A DNA stretch of 64,000 nt from Pelobacter sp. (GTDB taxonomy: Bacteria > Desulfobacterota > Desulfuromonadia > Geobacterales > Pseudopelobacteraceae): positions 1 through 64,000 of the forward strand of contig JAVBXN010000030.1 of assembly GCA_030824515.1 (NCBI GenBank), written 5' to 3'. Positions 4,671 to 10,409 of the stretch are shown here, piece by piece (position 1 is the stretch's first letter; every line of letters begins with the position of its first letter). A program made the translations under genes and the position numbers. The notes beneath the pieces are model-generated. The model worked only from the letters and a program-made list of their open reading frames with translations, had not been told where the DNA came from and ran no database searches.

Positions 4671-4696
4671 CGGCTAGGCTGAATATGGATTGTCTG

Positions 4697-4730
4697 ACGC
4701 CGGAGGTGCTTACCTCCGGCGTTTTTTTTG
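4697..4730 (+). terminator. Rho-independent terminator of acyl-CoA synthetase gene
   Basis: A perfect 11-bp stem (ACGCCGGAGGT / ACCTCCGGCGT) with a 4-base loop is followed by eight T residues, 26 bases after the stop codon. Confidence 0.93.
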
Positions 4731-4750: not shown

Positions 4751-5332
4751 TCATGCCGTTTCCAGGCTCTTTTGGAATAAAATCCGTGCCGTCGGCATTT
4801 CTCCGCTGTCGCTTTCTTCCGAAAAGAGTATTTCGCCGGCTTGAGCTTCAAACAGCCGGACCAGTTCTCCGCGGCGAAGCAGGTATGAATGTTTGTGAGT
4901 CGCCAGCAGTTGCGGCGACTCCATAATCGTATCGAACAGAAGCAGTCCCCCCGGATTGAGCGCCTTCAGCTCTATCGGTATCAATTCCCTCAAAAGAAAA
5001 TTGAAATTCAGGATCAGGTCATAGCTTGCATTGATCTCGTAATGTTCCAGGTCTACCACCCTGAAATCAACTTCAACGCCCTCCATTCCAGCCCTGGCGG
5101 ACGCCTTTGCCAGGCCGACATCCGAAATGTCCAATCCTGTCACCCTGAACCCGTGGTGTGCCAGGAAGATGCTGTTCCTGCCCTCGCCACAGGCAATATC
5201 CAGCGCAGTCCCGCCCGGGGCGAGGAGCTTGATCCTTTCGATCTCGCGAGCAAGGAAAGGGGACGTGTGCTCTCCCAGGTAGAAACCTTCCGACTGATAG
5301 CGCAGATTCCATTTGATTCGATCTTCTTCCAA
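4751..5332 (-). CDS. Class I SAM-dependent methyltransferase (TehB-like)
   Basis: The product of about 193 residues is a small Rossmann-fold methyltransferase. It carries the SAM motif I ALDIACGEGRN (residues 43-53), a TGLDIS acidic-loop motif and a DLILNFNFLLREL motif IV region, and resembles the TehB/UbiE-like group that modifies small molecules. I chose a TTG start at 5332 because GGAGG lies four bases upstream and the protein then begins at the conserved EEDRIKWNLRY segment. The frame stays open to an ATG at 5410, but that would add a non-conserved leader and would run through the TTTGCA palindromes. It is transcribed divergently from the small-protein/MFS cassette. The substrate is unknown. 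Confidence 0.8.
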   Translation of the reverse strand: MEEDRIKWNLRYQSEGFYLGEHTSPFLAREIERIKLLAPGGTALDIACGEGRNSIFLAHHGFRVTGLDISDVGLAKASARAGMEGVEVDFRVVDLEHYEINASYDLILNFNFLLRELIPIELKALNPGGLLLFDTIMESPQLLATHKHSYLLRRGELVRLFEAQAGEILFSEESDSGEMPTARILFQKSLETA

Positions 5333-5348
5333 ACGTCCTCCAATTAGG

Positions 5349-5397
5349 TTTGCATTCTTGCAAATGTGCAAAAAAAACCGGTTTGCAATTGTGCAAA
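5349..5397. promoter_or_regulatory. Cluster of TTTGCA-N4-TGCAAA palindromes
   Basis: Two perfect palindromes with 6-base arms and 4-base spacers lie at 5349-5364 and 5382-5397. An overlapping third site with 5-base arms (TTGCA-N4-TGCAA) is at 5358-5371. The perfect sites are 33 bases apart, about three helical turns. They lie about 200-250 bases upstream of the sigma-54-type promoter at 5599 and just upstream of the divergent methyltransferase start. This is the layout expected of enhancer sites for a sigma-54 activator, or operators controlling both genes. The binding protein is unknown. Confidence 0.65.
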
Positions 5398-5506
5398 ACA
5401 TCTGCATCAATCTCTAACAGGCCGTTAACACAGAAAATATTATTATTTGCATGCGCTAATCCTGTGCTTCAGATCAGCCGGTCTTTAAGTGGGCATGGCA
5501 TTCATA

Positions 5507-5522
5507 TTTGCATGATTGCAAA
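5507..5522. promoter_or_regulatory. Additional TTTGCA-N4-TGCAAA palindrome
   Basis: A further perfect copy of the palindrome, with spacer TGAT, lies 125 bases (about 12 turns) from the copy at 5382 and about 77 bases upstream of the sigma-54 -24 element. A TTTGCA half site is also present at 5446-5451. Confidence 0.6.
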
Positions 5523-5598
5523 ACGTTGATCCGGTATTTTAAAGCACAAAGCATGTAACATACTGAAATGTTTGGGTGTTATTGCTTGTGGTTCCTGT

Positions 5599-5613
5599 TG
5601 GCACACACCGTGC
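5599..5613 (+). promoter_or_regulatory. Sigma-54 (-24/-12) promoter
   Basis: The sequence TGGCAC-N5-GTGC matches the RpoN consensus TGGCAC-N5-TTGC at nine of ten positions, with invariant GG (5600-5601) and GC (5612-5613) exactly ten bases apart. Transcription would start near 5625, leaving a leader of about 24 bases with an AGGAG ribosome site before the ATG at 5649. A TGTATACA palindrome (5614-5621) directly abuts the -12 element. Confidence 0.7.
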
Positions 5614-5648
5614 TGTATACAATGTCAGAATGGTTATATGAGGAGAAT

Positions 5649-5840
5649 ATGGGAACTTCCAGCATCTGTCCATTTTACGGCAAAAACGATGATTACTGTG
5701 ATGTCGGTTGCGGTTACATTTCGCCGCACGATGTGAACATGATAATCAGATACTGCAGCGGACGCCACATGGAATGCATCAAGTACATGGAGCTGGCCGA
5801 CCGCTTCCCCGGTGAACTTGACCATCTTGTAACAGGCTGA
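5649..5840 (+). CDS. Small cysteine-rich protein, first gene of the MFS cassette
   Basis: The 63-residue product has five cysteines (ICPFY, YCDVGCGY, YCSG, ECIK) and no signal peptide or membrane helix. The CxxxC pair with two flanking cysteines suggests metal or iron-sulfur binding, but I do not recognise a named family. The ATG at 5649 has a strong ribosome site (AGGAG, 5641-5645). An upstream in-frame ATG at 5622 is possible, but it would leave almost no leader after the sigma-54 promoter. It is the first gene of a run of five ending with an OFA-type transporter and may act as a cytoplasmic sensor or assembly partner; that role is inference. Confidence 0.65.
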   Translation: MGTSSICPFYGKNDDYCDVGCGYISPHDVNMIIRYCSGRHMECIKYMELADRFPGELDHLVTG

Positions 5841-5872: not shown

Positions 5873-5995
5873 ATGCTCTACAACCTGACACTCAATTTCA
5901 ATCAGTTTCACGCTGTCCTGGCACTTACGGTAACCACGTTGTTTATAGTAATTCTACTCGCAAAGGAGAAAAACGATGAGCGAAAGAGAGCTTGA
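5873..5995 (+). CDS. 40-residue single-helix membrane protein
   Basis: An ATG at 5873 preceded by AAGGAGAAGAC opens a 40-codon frame starting MLYNLTLNFNQFHAV, followed by a hydrophobic helix (about 14-30) and a charged tail (KEKNDERKRA). Its last 20 bases overlap the next gene, a sign of translational coupling. It is too short for most gene callers, but the ribosome site, helix design and overlap support it as a real membrane micropeptide of the cassette. No function is recognised. Confidence 0.6.
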   Translation: MLYNLTLNFNQFHAVLALTVTTLFIVILLAKEKNDERKRA

Positions 5996-6227
5996 ACTGC
6001 AGGCAAGACTTGAATACCTTGAGCGTCACACCTGGCGGAACAGCGCCATCTTGAGGGCTGTGGCAATGGTGGCCTTCACGGCCCTGATTGGAATCGTAGT
6101 CGCCTCTGGAGTTGTCGGTGGCGGTCGCGGCAGCCACTGGTCCGGCCCGGCCTGGAACACGATGTGGCTCTATGGCCTGTTTGCCGCTAACGCGGTATCA
6201 ATGTTCTGGACGACTCACAAGGAATAG
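5976..6227 (+). CDS. Small two-helix membrane protein
   Basis: The 83-residue product starts with a charged, probably helical cytoplasmic segment (SERELELQARLEYLERH), then has two hydrophobic helices (about 27-47 and 60-77) separated by a glycine-rich loop (GVVGGGRGSHW). AAAGGAG lies just upstream of the ATG and the start overlaps the preceding micropeptide gene. It lies 12 bases from the next gene. I do not recognise a family; it is probably a small subunit of the membrane complex encoded here. Confidence 0.65.
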   Translation: MSERELELQARLEYLERHTWRNSAILRAVAMVAFTALIGIVVASGVVGGGRGSHWSGPAWNTMWLYGLFAANAVSMFWTTHKE

Positions 6228-6239
6228 GGGGATACGAAA

Positions 6240-7289
6240 ATGCCAATGAAAATTTCCAATGCAATTCTTCTGCTGGTTGTCTGCGTAGTATGTGCAGCTT
6301 TCAGCATGCAGATTTTTGCCGGTCTCGACGAGATGATGGGTGATCAATACTGGACAGTGGACACAACCCAGGGCGATCATGGTTGGTATGCGATGGGCCT
6401 GCTGCCGCACGTAAAGAAAATGCCCAAGGATGAGGCAAAGGCGCTTAACACCGACGCCGATCCCAAAAACGATGTTGTCATTTACGCCCAGAGCGGCGAT
6501 TTTGCCGGTAAATCGGTCTATGGTATCTGTTTCGGCATTCCGCTGATCATGTATCTGATCTGGTTTGCCTTTATCATCGGATTTCCCGACAAGGTCGATC
6601 CCTATCTGCTGCCTCGCAAGATATTTACCATCGCAGTAATCATCGGTTGTTCAGTTGTAGCCAATCTTTTCCTGATGCGCATTGCCGGCGATTTCGCCCG
6701 CGATCCGATGTCCCGTATCGCCAACCTGGCCGGAAACCACGCCTCGTTGCTTTTCCACAATGCCGGGATCTGGTTTGCGATTCTCTTTTCCGCCCTCGGT
6801 ACTCACAACCATTCCTTCAATGAAGTTCAGGCGCCCGACAGTCGTCAATGGCATTCTCAAGCCAACGAGAAATTCAACTGGATGTTCTGTCTGCTGGGGG
6901 TTGTCACGGTGTTGGAAGTTGTACTTGTAAAGAACAAGCTTGCTCTGCCGGATGCCGCGGTTGACTATTCGGTCTGGATTATCTGGGTTGTGATCTTCAT
7001 GCGCATGTACGGCTTCTCTCCGAAATACTGGATCAAGCGTCCGACAGGAATTGCCATCATGGTAGTCGGAACCCTGTTGACCCTGCCGGTATTCTACATG
7101 CTGGAGCGCGTGACCGGGACTCTTGGCGCCGGCTTTGCTTCTCCGATTCTGGCCAAGGCTTTGGGAGCCGAGAATCAGAATATAGGTTTGTCGCTGATGA
7201 TTTCAATCTATCTAGTTTTCTGGATGGAGTTTGCTACCGCCATCCGTATGAACGGCCCGCTTAAAAAAGCGGTTGCCAAGCAACAATAA
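6240..7289 (+). CDS. Polytopic membrane protein of unknown family
   Basis: The 349-residue protein has about seven to eight predicted membrane helices: an N-terminal one (6-26), then a soluble loop of about 80 residues with several Trp and Asp, then a series of helices from about 98 to 340. The central stretch HASLLFHNAG followed by LGTHNHSFNE is histidine-rich and lies at helix ends, which could suit metal or heme binding, but no standard motif is complete. It is coupled upstream to the two small membrane proteins and lies 18 bases before an OFA-type carrier gene. I do not recognise the family, so a function would be guesswork. Confidence 0.7.
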   Translation: MPMKISNAILLLVVCVVCAAFSMQIFAGLDEMMGDQYWTVDTTQGDHGWYAMGLLPHVKKMPKDEAKALNTDADPKNDVVIYAQSGDFAGKSVYGICFGIPLIMYLIWFAFIIGFPDKVDPYLLPRKIFTIAVIIGCSVVANLFLMRIAGDFARDPMSRIANLAGNHASLLFHNAGIWFAILFSALGTHNHSFNEVQAPDSRQWHSQANEKFNWMFCLLGVVTVLEVVLVKNKLALPDAAVDYSVWIIWVVIFMRMYGFSPKYWIKRPTGIAIMVVGTLLTLPVFYMLERVTGTLGAGFASPILAKALGAENQNIGLSLMISIYLVFWMEFATAIRMNGPLKKAVAKQQ

Positions 7290-7307
7290 GCCAGGGGGGA
7301 AATAGAC

Positions 7308-8678
7308 ATGTCCGATATCAAGAACAGAGGTTGGCAGGTAGTCATAGCCGGCACCGGCATCAACCTGGCTTTGGGAGTACTTTACGCCTGGAGTATATTC
7401 AAAGGGGCCATCAAGGCCTCAATCGAAAAAGGTGGTCCGGGCGCTTTCCAGTGGGATATAGCTTCAATCAACGATCCCTATGCAGTTTGCTGTCTGACTT
7501 TTGCATTCGCAATGATCCTGGCAGGTAAATGCCAGGACAAGATCGGTCCGGCCAAAACCGCGTTGATCGGTGGTGTGCTGGTAGGGGCAGGATTCAGCCT
7601 GCTGGGTTTCTCGTCAAGCTATATAGCCTGGGTGGTTGGTTTCGGCATATTGGGTGGAGCCGGTTTCGGTTTCGGATATTCGGCGGCGACCCCTCCGGCC
7701 CTGAAGTGGTTCTCACCATCCAAGACCGGCCTGATTGCCGGAATCGTTGTGGGTGGATTCGGTCTGGCTCCGGTTTACATTGCACCGCTTTCATCCTGGC
7801 TTCTGGGCAAATTCGGGATCCAGTCGTCGATGCTGATTCTTGCCGCTGGTTTTGCGGTTGTGGTTTGCGGTCTGTCCTTCTTTGTTGTTAATCCTCCGGC
7901 TGGTTATGCACCGCCAGAACCTGCCAACCCCGGTCCGGTGGCCGCGCTGAATGCCGCCAAACCAAAAATCAATGCGGCTGCCAGCGAGATGCTGCGCTCC
8001 TACAAGTTCTATGTGCTCTGGCTGACCTATTTCATCGGCGCCGGCGCAGGCCTGATGGTAATCGGCAGCGTGGCCGGTCTGGCCAAAAAGAGTATGGGCC
8101 CGATGGCATTTGTGGCCGTGGCTATTATGGCGGTCGGTAACGCAGCTGGCCGTGTTGTTGCCGGGGTGTTGTCGGACAAGATCGGCCGCCGCGCAACCCT
8201 GTTTATCATGCTTTCCTTCCAGGCCGTGTTGATGTTTGCCGCTATGCCGGTGATCTCTACGAATAATGCCGTATTGCTGGTTGTTCTGGCTACGTTTATC
8301 GGTTTCAACTACGGTTCCAACCTGGCCCTGTTCCCGTCATTCTCCAAGGATTACTGGGGAGTCAAGAACTACGGCATGAACTATGGCATCCTGTTCAGTG
8401 CCTGGGGTGTGGGTGGTTTCGTAATGGGCAAGGTTTCCGAAATGTTGAACGCCCAACCGGGTGGCATGTCAAAATCATTCATGCTCTCCGGCGCGCTGCT
8501 GGCTGCCGGCGCCGCATTGACGATCTTCCTGGCCGAGCTCAAGCCGGCAACGGAAGGTCAGGAAGAACCCTCGCAATGGAAAGAGTTCTGGGCCGAATTC
8601 ATGCTGGGCGCCAAGGTTTTTGCCGGATATGAGCAGGCACAGGTTCGCATCCCGAGAGAGGCTACCGTTACAAGATAG
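7308..8678 (+). CDS. MFS carrier of the oxalate/formate antiporter (OFA) family
   Basis: The 456-residue protein has the 12-helix pattern of the major facilitator superfamily. The start GWQVVIAGTGINLALGVLYAWS and the following ICL-type segment KCQDKIGPAKTALIGG are typical of the OFA family, which moves small carboxylates such as oxalate, formate, lactate or pyruvate across the inner membrane. A matching second-half loop is SDKIGRRATLF. It is the last gene of the cassette and ends before a strong hairpin terminator. The substrate is not readable; co-transcription with four small or unknown membrane proteins is unusual for a carrier that normally acts alone. Confidence 0.85.
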   Translation: MSDIKNRGWQVVIAGTGINLALGVLYAWSIFKGAIKASIEKGGPGAFQWDIASINDPYAVCCLTFAFAMILAGKCQDKIGPAKTALIGGVLVGAGFSLLGFSSSYIAWVVGFGILGGAGFGFGYSAATPPALKWFSPSKTGLIAGIVVGGFGLAPVYIAPLSSWLLGKFGIQSSMLILAAGFAVVVCGLSFFVVNPPAGYAPPEPANPGPVAALNAAKPKINAAASEMLRSYKFYVLWLTYFIGAGAGLMVIGSVAGLAKKSMGPMAFVAVAIMAVGNAAGRVVAGVLSDKIGRRATLFIMLSFQAVLMFAAMPVISTNNAVLLVVLATFIGFNYGSNLALFPSFSKDYWGVKNYGMNYGILFSAWGVGGFVMGKVSEMLNAQPGGMSKSFMLSGALLAAGAALTIFLAELKPATEGQEEPSQWKEFWAEFMLGAKVFAGYEQAQVRIPREATVTR

Positions 8679-8832: not shown

Positions 8833-9246
8833 TCAATATGTCATGCAGGCCGCATTGAGGATTCCGATTGAAATCGAGCAGAATGCCAGCAGAGTCGCGG
8901 CGGCGATATGATTGTTCTCGATCTCCCGCACCAGATCCCTGAAAACAAGCCGGACAGTGCCGAATACCGCAAACTGCACCAGCATCGCGATCACGGCCCA
9001 GATCAGCATGTCGATGAAGCCGACACTGTGGGTGATGGCACTGTAAAGCGGCAGGATGAATCCGGTCAGTGCGCCTCCGAAGCTTATGGCCGCCGAGGTC
9101 TTACCTTCGCGAATCAGCTTCAATTCGTTATAGGGTGTCATTGCGCAATAGATAATGCAGAAAACAGCCACAAAACCAAGTGACGCGCCAAAATAGCTGC
9201 AGAAGCCAAGCAGCCCCGACAGTGAATCAAGCAGTTTGCCTTGCAT
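8833..9246 (-). CDS. DUF350 membrane protein (YjfL-like)
   Basis: The 137-residue product has four predicted membrane helices and resembles DUF350 proteins, with an internal repeat of two-helix units separated by the segment YNELKLIREGKTSAAISFGG. The ATG at 9246 follows GAGGAGG, so a longer open frame reaching 9381, which overlaps the preceding gene, is not used. It is the last gene of a three-gene minus-strand operon after the ATP-grasp ligase and DUF1190 lipoprotein, the same trio as yjfL, yjfM and yjfC in E. coli (order differs). Its molecular role is unknown. Confidence 0.85.
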   Translation of the reverse strand: MQGKLLDSLSGLLGFCSYFGASLGFVAVFCIIYCAMTPYNELKLIREGKTSAAISFGGALTGFILPLYSAITHSVGFIDMLIWAVIAMLVQFAVFGTVRLVFRDLVREIENNHIAAATLLAFCSISIGILNAACMTY

Positions 9247-9281
9247 CGGAAAATCCTCCTCGATCTGAAATTTATTGATAA

Positions 9282-10409
9282 CTATTGAAACAGGTGCGGT
9301 ACAAAGCGGCTGGTATTGGTGGTAACTCGCGATAAATCTTCGCGAATGCCGATACCGGCTGGCTCGCCACCTATTACCCATGACCCGATCACCGGATAGT
9401 TTCCTTCAAAACAGGGCATCTCGGCCAATTCCTGATAGACTGTGCCATTGCCGGTATAGCTCCCGTCATATTCCGTGACCAGACCATTGCGGTGAACATT
9501 GATGTTGCTCCCCTCCCGCGACAGAAAAGGCTTGGACACGAAGTTGTCGCGGAAATGCTGCGGGTCGAAGCTTGCTTCCAGAAGGTTGGGGTGGCGAGGG
9601 TTCAGTTCCCACAGAACCGGAAGGATAGCCTTGTTACTGAGGATCATTTTCCAGGCCGGTTCTATCAGGATTATTCCGCTCTGCTCCAGATAACGTCCGA
9701 AAAACTCGCTGACGAGCCATTCCCACGGATAAAGTTTGAACATTGAATTGATGACATTGTCATTGCTGTCCACATATCTGGAACCAAGCGAGTCGAAACC
9801 GATGTCTTCGATAAAAAACTGCTCGGTCGCCAAACCTGACTGATGGGCAGTGTCACGCAGGTATTCCAGGTTTCCAAGGTCCTCTGCGGCATCCTTGACG
9901 CAGCTGAAATATAGCGTTCCGTTGATGGCGCTTTTCAGTCCATTCCAACTTTCAATCAGTTTTTCGTGAATAGAGTTGAACTGATCCGCTTCGGGAAAAC
10001 GATCCTTCAGCCAGAACCATTGTGTAACGCTGGCCTCCAGCAGCGCGGTGGGGGTGTCGGCGTTATACTCAAGCATCCTGGGAGGGGAATGTCCGTCGTA
10101 AACCAGATCAAACCTTCCCAGAATCGAGGGCTCATCGTTCTCCCAGGAACGTTCTATCAGCGGAATCGCCAGCGGCGGAATCTGCAGTTTATCGTAAAGT
10201 TTTTCGGAGATGACGTGCCCGACCGCCTCGATACAAATCTCCTGCAGTTCCGCGGTAGCAGCTTCCAGTTCATCGATTTCCGAAGCCGTGAAAGAATAAT
10301 GGGCTGTTTCATCCCAATAGACCTCGCCGTCGATGGTGTGGTAGCTCATGCCGCATGATTCCACTTTTTGCTGCCACTCAAAGCGTGGTGGCGTGACATT
10401 GCGCTGCAT
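9282..10409 (-). CDS. Glutathionylspermidine synthase-like ATP-grasp ligase (YgiC/YjfC-like)
   Basis: The 375-residue protein matches the C-terminal synthetase domain of glutathionylspermidine synthase: the acidic N-terminal segment around GEVYWDETAHYSF, the substrate/ATP-binding segment GRFDLVYDGHSPPRMLEYNAD and the C-terminal MPCFEGNYPVIGSWV part are conserved. There is no amidase domain, as in YgiC and YjfC. Such proteins are predicted ATP-dependent amide ligases joining an amine to a carboxylate, but the true substrate is unproven. The gene starts two bases after the DUF1190 lipoprotein stop, so the two are probably translationally coupled. Confidence 0.85.
   Translation of the reverse strand: MQRNVTPPRFEWQQKVESCGMSYHTIDGEVYWDETAHYSFTASEIDELEAATAELQEICIEAVGHVISEKLYDKLQIPPLAIPLIERSWENDEPSILGRFDLVYDGHSPPRMLEYNADTPTALLEASVTQWFWLKDRFPEADQFNSIHEKLIESWNGLKSAINGTLYFSCVKDAAEDLGNLEYLRDTAHQSGLATEQFFIEDIGFDSLGSRYVDSNDNVINSMFKLYPWEWLVSEFFGRYLEQSGIILIEPAWKMILSNKAILPVLWELNPRHPNLLEASFDPQHFRDNFVSKPFLSREGSNINVHRNGLVTEYDGSYTGNGTVYQELAEMPCFEGNYPVIGSWVIGGEPAGIGIREDLSRVTTNTSRFVPHLFQ

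Follow-up and report, generated by a model that had tools for sequence, protein, structure and literature searches.

A stretch of 64,000 nucleotides of Pelobacter sp. DNA (the window) contains a cluster of TTTGCA-N4-TGCAAA palindromes and a sigma-54 promoter element in front of a membrane-transport operon, and the presence of this site cluster is confirmed, as is its conservation in Geobacter and related bacteria. With high probability, judging from sequence comparison, the candidate activator of these sites is an NtrC-family response regulator encoded elsewhere in the genome (G000:C2:105069-106457) together with an adjacent sensor kinase. This regulator-kinase pair probably switches on the uptake of acetate-like acids.

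The control region

The intergenic gap at 5333-5648 is bordered by a TehB-like methyltransferase gene on the minus strand and by a plus-strand operon, and is best explained as the control region of that operon, which would be sigma-54-dependent and comprises s63, a 40-aa peptide, s83, p349 and an SfMCT-type transporter. The features are as follows.

4751-5332, minus strand: divergent TehB-like methyltransferase gene, with a TTG start at 5332 behind GGAGG
5349-5364, unstranded: putative upstream activating site 1, TTTGCATTCTTGCAAA, perfect TTTGCA-N4-TGCAAA with 0 mismatches
5357-5372, unstranded: overlapping site, CTTGCAAATGTGCAAA, 1 mismatch
5382-5397, unstranded: putative upstream activating site 2, TTTGCAATTGTGCAAA, perfect TTTGCA-N4-TGCAAA with 0 mismatches
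5446-5451, plus strand: unpaired TTTGCA half site, for which no evidence of function was found
5507-5522, unstranded: putative upstream activating site 3, TTTGCATGATTGCAAA, perfect TTTGCA-N4-TGCAAA with 0 mismatches, nearest to the promoter
5599-5614, plus strand: -24/-12 sigma-54 promoter element, TGGCACACACCGTGCT, with GG at 5600-5601, GC at 5612-5613 and 10 nt between them
5649-5840, plus strand: s63, 63-aa cysteine-rich protein, first gene of the operon
5873-5995, plus strand: 40-aa peptide with one predicted hydrophobic segment; a similar short frame occurs in relatives (L072)
5976-6227, plus strand: s83, 83-aa conserved small membrane protein
6240-7289, plus strand: p349, 349-aa conserved integral membrane protein with multiple helices
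7308-8678, plus strand: MFS transporter of the SfMCT (L-lactate/monocarboxylate) type (NCBIfam NF049980, PDB 6g9x)

The preliminary description of this DNA had reported three perfect palindromes at 5349, 5382 and 5507, an overlapping fourth site and a half site, and a rescan reproduced all of them exactly. The spacings of 33 and 125 bp between sites and the distances of 77-250 bp to the promoter were likewise accurate. Spacing near whole helical turns holds for the 33 and 125 bp of the window and does not hold as a conserved rule, the spacings in relatives being variable (23, 29-33, 38-39 and 100-165 bp are among them); helical phasing as such a rule was rejected, periodicity over the distinct spacings not being significant.

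A sigma-54 promoter is recognized here by GG and GC placed 10 nt apart in a TGGCAC-N5-TTGC context, and 5599-5614 shows this spacing in a closely similar context. The previously noted match to nine of the ten consensus positions was confirmed in score and position, and transcription is predicted to start at about 5625; the presence of GTGC instead of TTGC at -12 counts against the explanation favoured here. The centre of site 3 lies 84 bp before the element. In the genus the element keeps its place about 50 bp ahead of the ATG, and in the window and its closest relatives the centre of the nearest site precedes the element by 81-94 bp. An IHF site in the interval from the last activating site to the promoter was also considered and was dropped, the enrichment being weak (14 of 44 regions against 6.4 expected).

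That the palindrome might be common at random across the genome is contradicted by its count. The 4.65-Mb genome contains three perfect matches, against one for the reversed pattern, and since all three fall within this control region, the sites are more than a chance occurrence. Allowing one mismatch gives 11 matches compared with five for the reversed pattern; those located elsewhere are single and mostly inside long open frames, not in promoter clusters, and a search among these one-mismatch sites revealed no second promoter-linked target in this genome.

Conservation of the sites in relatives

The palindrome is present in 51 of 58 relatives, often two to six times, and the reversed control pattern is rare. 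A scan with p349 gave 80 named loci from Geobacter, Geomonas, Geotalea, Citrifermentans, Trichlorobacter, Oryzomonas, Pelotalea and uncultured relatives, and 76 regions, including that of the window, were analysed, each covering at most 500 bp ahead of s63. Conservation of the sites in front of orthologous cassettes is borne out by 123 perfect sites in these regions against none for the reversed pattern, with a -24/-12 element following downstream; 66 of the 76 contain two or more sites when one mismatch is allowed. The spacer is exactly four nucleotides, no perfect site with a spacer of 0-3 or 5-10 being present, and relaxed TTGCA/TGCAA matches have a spacer of four in 155 cases and of three in one. 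The overlapping one-mismatch site at 5357-5372 is retained in some close relatives. A strong -24/-12 element lies within 250 bp of 39 of 51 site clusters from relatives, compared with 3% of random positions.

These observations bear on the proposal that the palindromes are operators of a factor unrelated to sigma-54, either a repressor or a regulator of the methyltransferase, or else chance repeats, which we regard as very improbable. Site 1 lies just 17 bp upstream of the start codon of the methyltransferase gene, where it would overlap that gene's promoter; however, families without a methyltransferase gene at this place retain the same sites, no -24/-12 element faces the gene in the window (best score 14.9 versus 19.2), and site clusters accompany -24/-12 elements at many unrelated genes, while chance repetition fails on both the genome-wide count and the conservation in cassette upstream regions. 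For the first two of these reasons, the additional proposal of control over the divergent methyltransferase is not supported, and the gene was discarded as a conserved target.

Further occurrences were recorded in relatives. In L049, L065, L067 and L060, site pairs with a weaker -24/-12-like element are found close to a conserved gene of roughly 145 aa (MDTRTIDEAIDKYVHERM...), which is a possible further target. Single sites with -24/-12-like elements also precede related short frames of about 56 aa (...FLKGFGVLFG...) in L062 and L070.

The candidate activator

About 38 proteins with a Sigma54_activat match are encoded in the window genome. The candidate activator (equivalent to L090:8070-9461) is the single clear ortholog of a regulator that, in many Geobacterales, is encoded beside the cassette in the order kinase, response regulator, sites, promoter, s63, s83 and p349; it is 73% identical to the L061 neighbour, the next paralog reaching 42%. 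In the window genome its gene lies directly behind that of its kinase and far from the operon, a lack of linkage that counts against the explanation favoured here. The protein contains REC, Sigma54_activat and Fis-type HTH (HTH_8) domains and a GAFTGA loop, which place it in the NtrC family of enhancer-binding proteins (bEBPs), and its recognition helix, NMATIYRKIKKY, is conserved among the regulator orthologs and different in paralogs.

Regulator and sites occur together well beyond the immediate relatives. An even sample of 195 genomes from the class includes 150 with the regulator; perfect sites are found in 137 of these compared with 13 of the 45 others (Fisher p of about 4e-16, computed without correction for relatedness). 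Among the 58 relatives, a site is present in 44 of 45 regulator-bearing genomes versus seven of the 13 others. The arrangement of kinase, regulator, sites, promoter and cassette also extends to other families of the class; outside the order of the window genome, about 16 of 27 genomes with listed site places have a site within 1.2 kb of the regulator. For 14 cassette loci, almost none of which has a linked regulator, the genome was searched as well; every genome contains an ortholog, which in three is partial or interrupted.

A perfect site is absent from 13 regulator-bearing genomes of the class, and 13 others have a perfect site and no detected regulator, four of them with two or more sites. 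Three of the 58 relatives (G019, G026 and G033) have several sites and no detected regulator. In G026 only 76 bp of contig remain after p349, and in its relative G029 the regulator sits at just this place, so that an assembly gap is the likely reason for the absence; G019 is devoid of both p349 and the regulator. Because many of the genomes are draft or metagenome assemblies, absences of regulator or sites are uncertain. In two relatives (G045, L157:6606-7938; G037, L171:about 7000-8028) s83-p349 was seen without an s63 gene, no regulator ortholog was detected, and the genomes contain one palindrome and none, respectively, a pattern that would be expected if regulator, sites and s63 had been lost together.

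A different enhancer-binding protein, or several, might occupy the sites, the linked regulator being merely a neighbour. This is rather unlikely: the abundance of Sigma54_activat proteins, the few genomes that keep sites without a detected ortholog and the precedent of LuxO and SypG, which are known to share sites (PMC10162802), speak for it, but they are set against linkage in many families of two orders, class-wide co-occurrence and the conserved recognition helix. The original proposal that an enhancer-binding activator on the palindromes drives the sigma-54 promoter of the membrane cassette is thus supported by conserved, non-random sites and by a named candidate, the linked NtrC-family regulator.

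The nearest published activating site that was found is that of LuxO from Vibrio, TTGCAWWWTGCAA, which consists of inverted TTGCA/TGCAA half sites and occurs in pairs upstream of sigma-54 promoters (PMC10162802). The inverted half sites are shared, but the LuxO spacer is three nucleotides while a spacer of four rules here, and the regulator falls below the LuxO equivalog cut-off (NCBIfam NF041946; 355.8 versus 800 bits). The best-scoring NCBIfam models for the regulator and the kinase core are AtoC and AtoS. The AtoS-AtoC system of Escherichia coli resembles the new pair in combining a histidine kinase with an NtrC-type sigma-54 activator in short-chain acid metabolism; in contrast, it is Cache-free, and the equivalog cut-offs are far from reached by either the regulator (NF008469; 456 versus 714 bits) or the kinase (253 versus 646). 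Since both proteins score so far below them, the pair appears to work like AtoSC but is not AtoSC. The AtoC site, a 40-bp inverted pair of GCTATGCAGAAATTTGCACA-like 20-mers (PMC3118216), is also unlike TTTGCA-N4-TGCAAA, and the targets of the new pair are transporters.

The sensor kinase and its likely signal

The kinase (L090, about 6111-8069) is a periplasmic double-Cache histidine kinase (dCache_2/sCache_2), and both Cache modules align with the solved sensor domains 4k08, 4exo/2qhk and 5g4y. The sensor PscD (5g4y/5g4z) holds its ligands glycolate, acetate, propionate and pyruvate with Tyr90, His103, Tyr143 and Lys156 (PMC5062169). In pairwise HMMER alignments, these four pocket residues (Tyr/His/Tyr/Lys) and Trp145 are retained in both Cache modules. 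As read from these alignments, the kinase has the four binding residues by which a C2/C3-carboxylate Cache sensor is recognized here, and it may sense a C2/C3 carboxylate such as acetate. PscD and Adeh_3718, whose sCache sensors have the same pocket residues, are single-Cache chemoreceptors, whereas the protein described here is a double-Cache histidine kinase.

The activator assignment could be right and the signal be something other than a C2/C3 carboxylate, for instance a different acid or a cue from metals or redox state. The five near-invariant cysteine positions of s63 could sense metal or redox state, PscD Trp92 aligns with a phenylalanine in the second Cache module, and the residues flanking the pocket set ligand size in such sensors (PMC5062169). 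All four carboxylate-binding residues are nevertheless retained in both modules and the targets belong to lactate and acetate transporter families, so that such a different signal seems unlikely, if not negligibly so, and a C2/C3 carboxylate is the preferred signal.

The operon and transporter targets in relatives

The MFS protein of the window scores 403.5 bits against NCBIfam NF049980 (cut-off 320), which places it among the SfMCT-type L-lactate transporters, and matches PDB 6g9x with an E value of 7.5e-48. It is like SfMCT by these matches and differs from it in being part of an operon with s63, s83, p349 and a sigma-54 promoter. In relatives, other promoters of the same type precede stand-alone SfMCT genes, acetate transporters of the AceTr (GPR1/FUN34/YaaH) type and an alpha/beta hydrolase. 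Against the AceTr model (NCBIfam NF038013, cut-off 50 bits), relatives score 142 (L081) and 224 bits (L194), and a protein with an N-terminal s63 domain scores 75 bits (L189). The s63 domain is free-standing in Geobacterales, as in the window, and fused to the N-terminus of AceTr-type proteins in other Desulfuromonadia (L186-L202); this fusion ties the first gene of the operon to acetate uptake. Taken together, a class-wide two-component sigma-54 regulon for C2/C3 carboxylates would be the best reading of these sequences.

The s63 sequence follows the pattern CPFYGxxDDxCDVGCGYISxHDVxMIIxYC...C, whose five cysteine positions are kept in nearly all copies, and has no match in Pfam or NCBIfam. 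For s83, no known family was matched. Identity of p349 is 72-99% over the lineage and every locus found belongs to Geobacterales; comparison with Pfam, NCBIfam, PDB and AceTr gave no convincing relation, and two AlphaFold runs reached a mean pLDDT of 46 and 48, values that do not permit a fold search. That s63 is a new metal- or redox-responsive regulatory subunit for carboxylate uptake and that s83 and p349 form a new carboxylate transporter family is a speculative combination that we consider improbable.

Beyond the operon, a glutathionylspermidine-synthase-like gene (9282-10409) adjoins a DUF350 gene (8833-9381) on the minus strand. On the other side, a strong terminator-like hairpin followed by T8 (4696-4723) separates the AMP-binding synthetase gene from the methyltransferase gene, the two being convergent.

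Proposed mechanism and significance

In the model as a whole, to which we attach considerable confidence, the Cache kinase would sense a C2/C3 carboxylate, for example acetate, in the periplasm and phosphorylate the partner NtrC-family regulator, which would then assemble on the TTTGCA-N4-TGCAAA sites. DNA looping would bring the regulator to the sigma-54 RNA polymerase at 5599-5614, where its GAFTGA-bearing ATPase domain would open the promoter and allow transcription of the uptake operon from about 5625. As a result, short-monocarboxylate uptake would be turned on.

No published description of the motif, the regulator or the cassette was found in the literature searched, a scope outside which most subscription journals fall, and the motif is not printed in the main text of the Geobacter RpoN paper or of two D. 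vulgaris papers. CrbS/R is a two-component system for acetate utilization (PMC5715377; PMC5436829), but CrbS senses through an SLC5 symporter domain and the system targets acs, whereas here a Cache kinase is combined with a sigma-54 activator and transporters are the targets.

Geobacter-type metal reducers feed mainly on acetate and related acids. In the literature consulted, acetate transport in G. sulfurreducens is assigned to the AplA-D sodium/solute symporters (PMC7894505). The present analysis connects one sensor-regulator pair across the class with a specific DNA site, with a sigma-54 promoter and with acid transporters other than AplA-D. With pair, site, promoter and targets linked, the switch and its signal are therefore directly testable. 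Membership of the operon also gives s63, s83 and p349, none of which matches a known family, an initial functional setting, and should their tentative assignment prove true, food-acid uptake in these metal reducers would be under double control, by a carboxylate sensor and by a metal or redox sensor. What makes the system interesting is that regulator, site, likely signal and targets can all be named at once in a group of ecological importance, and that the operon includes three orphan proteins.
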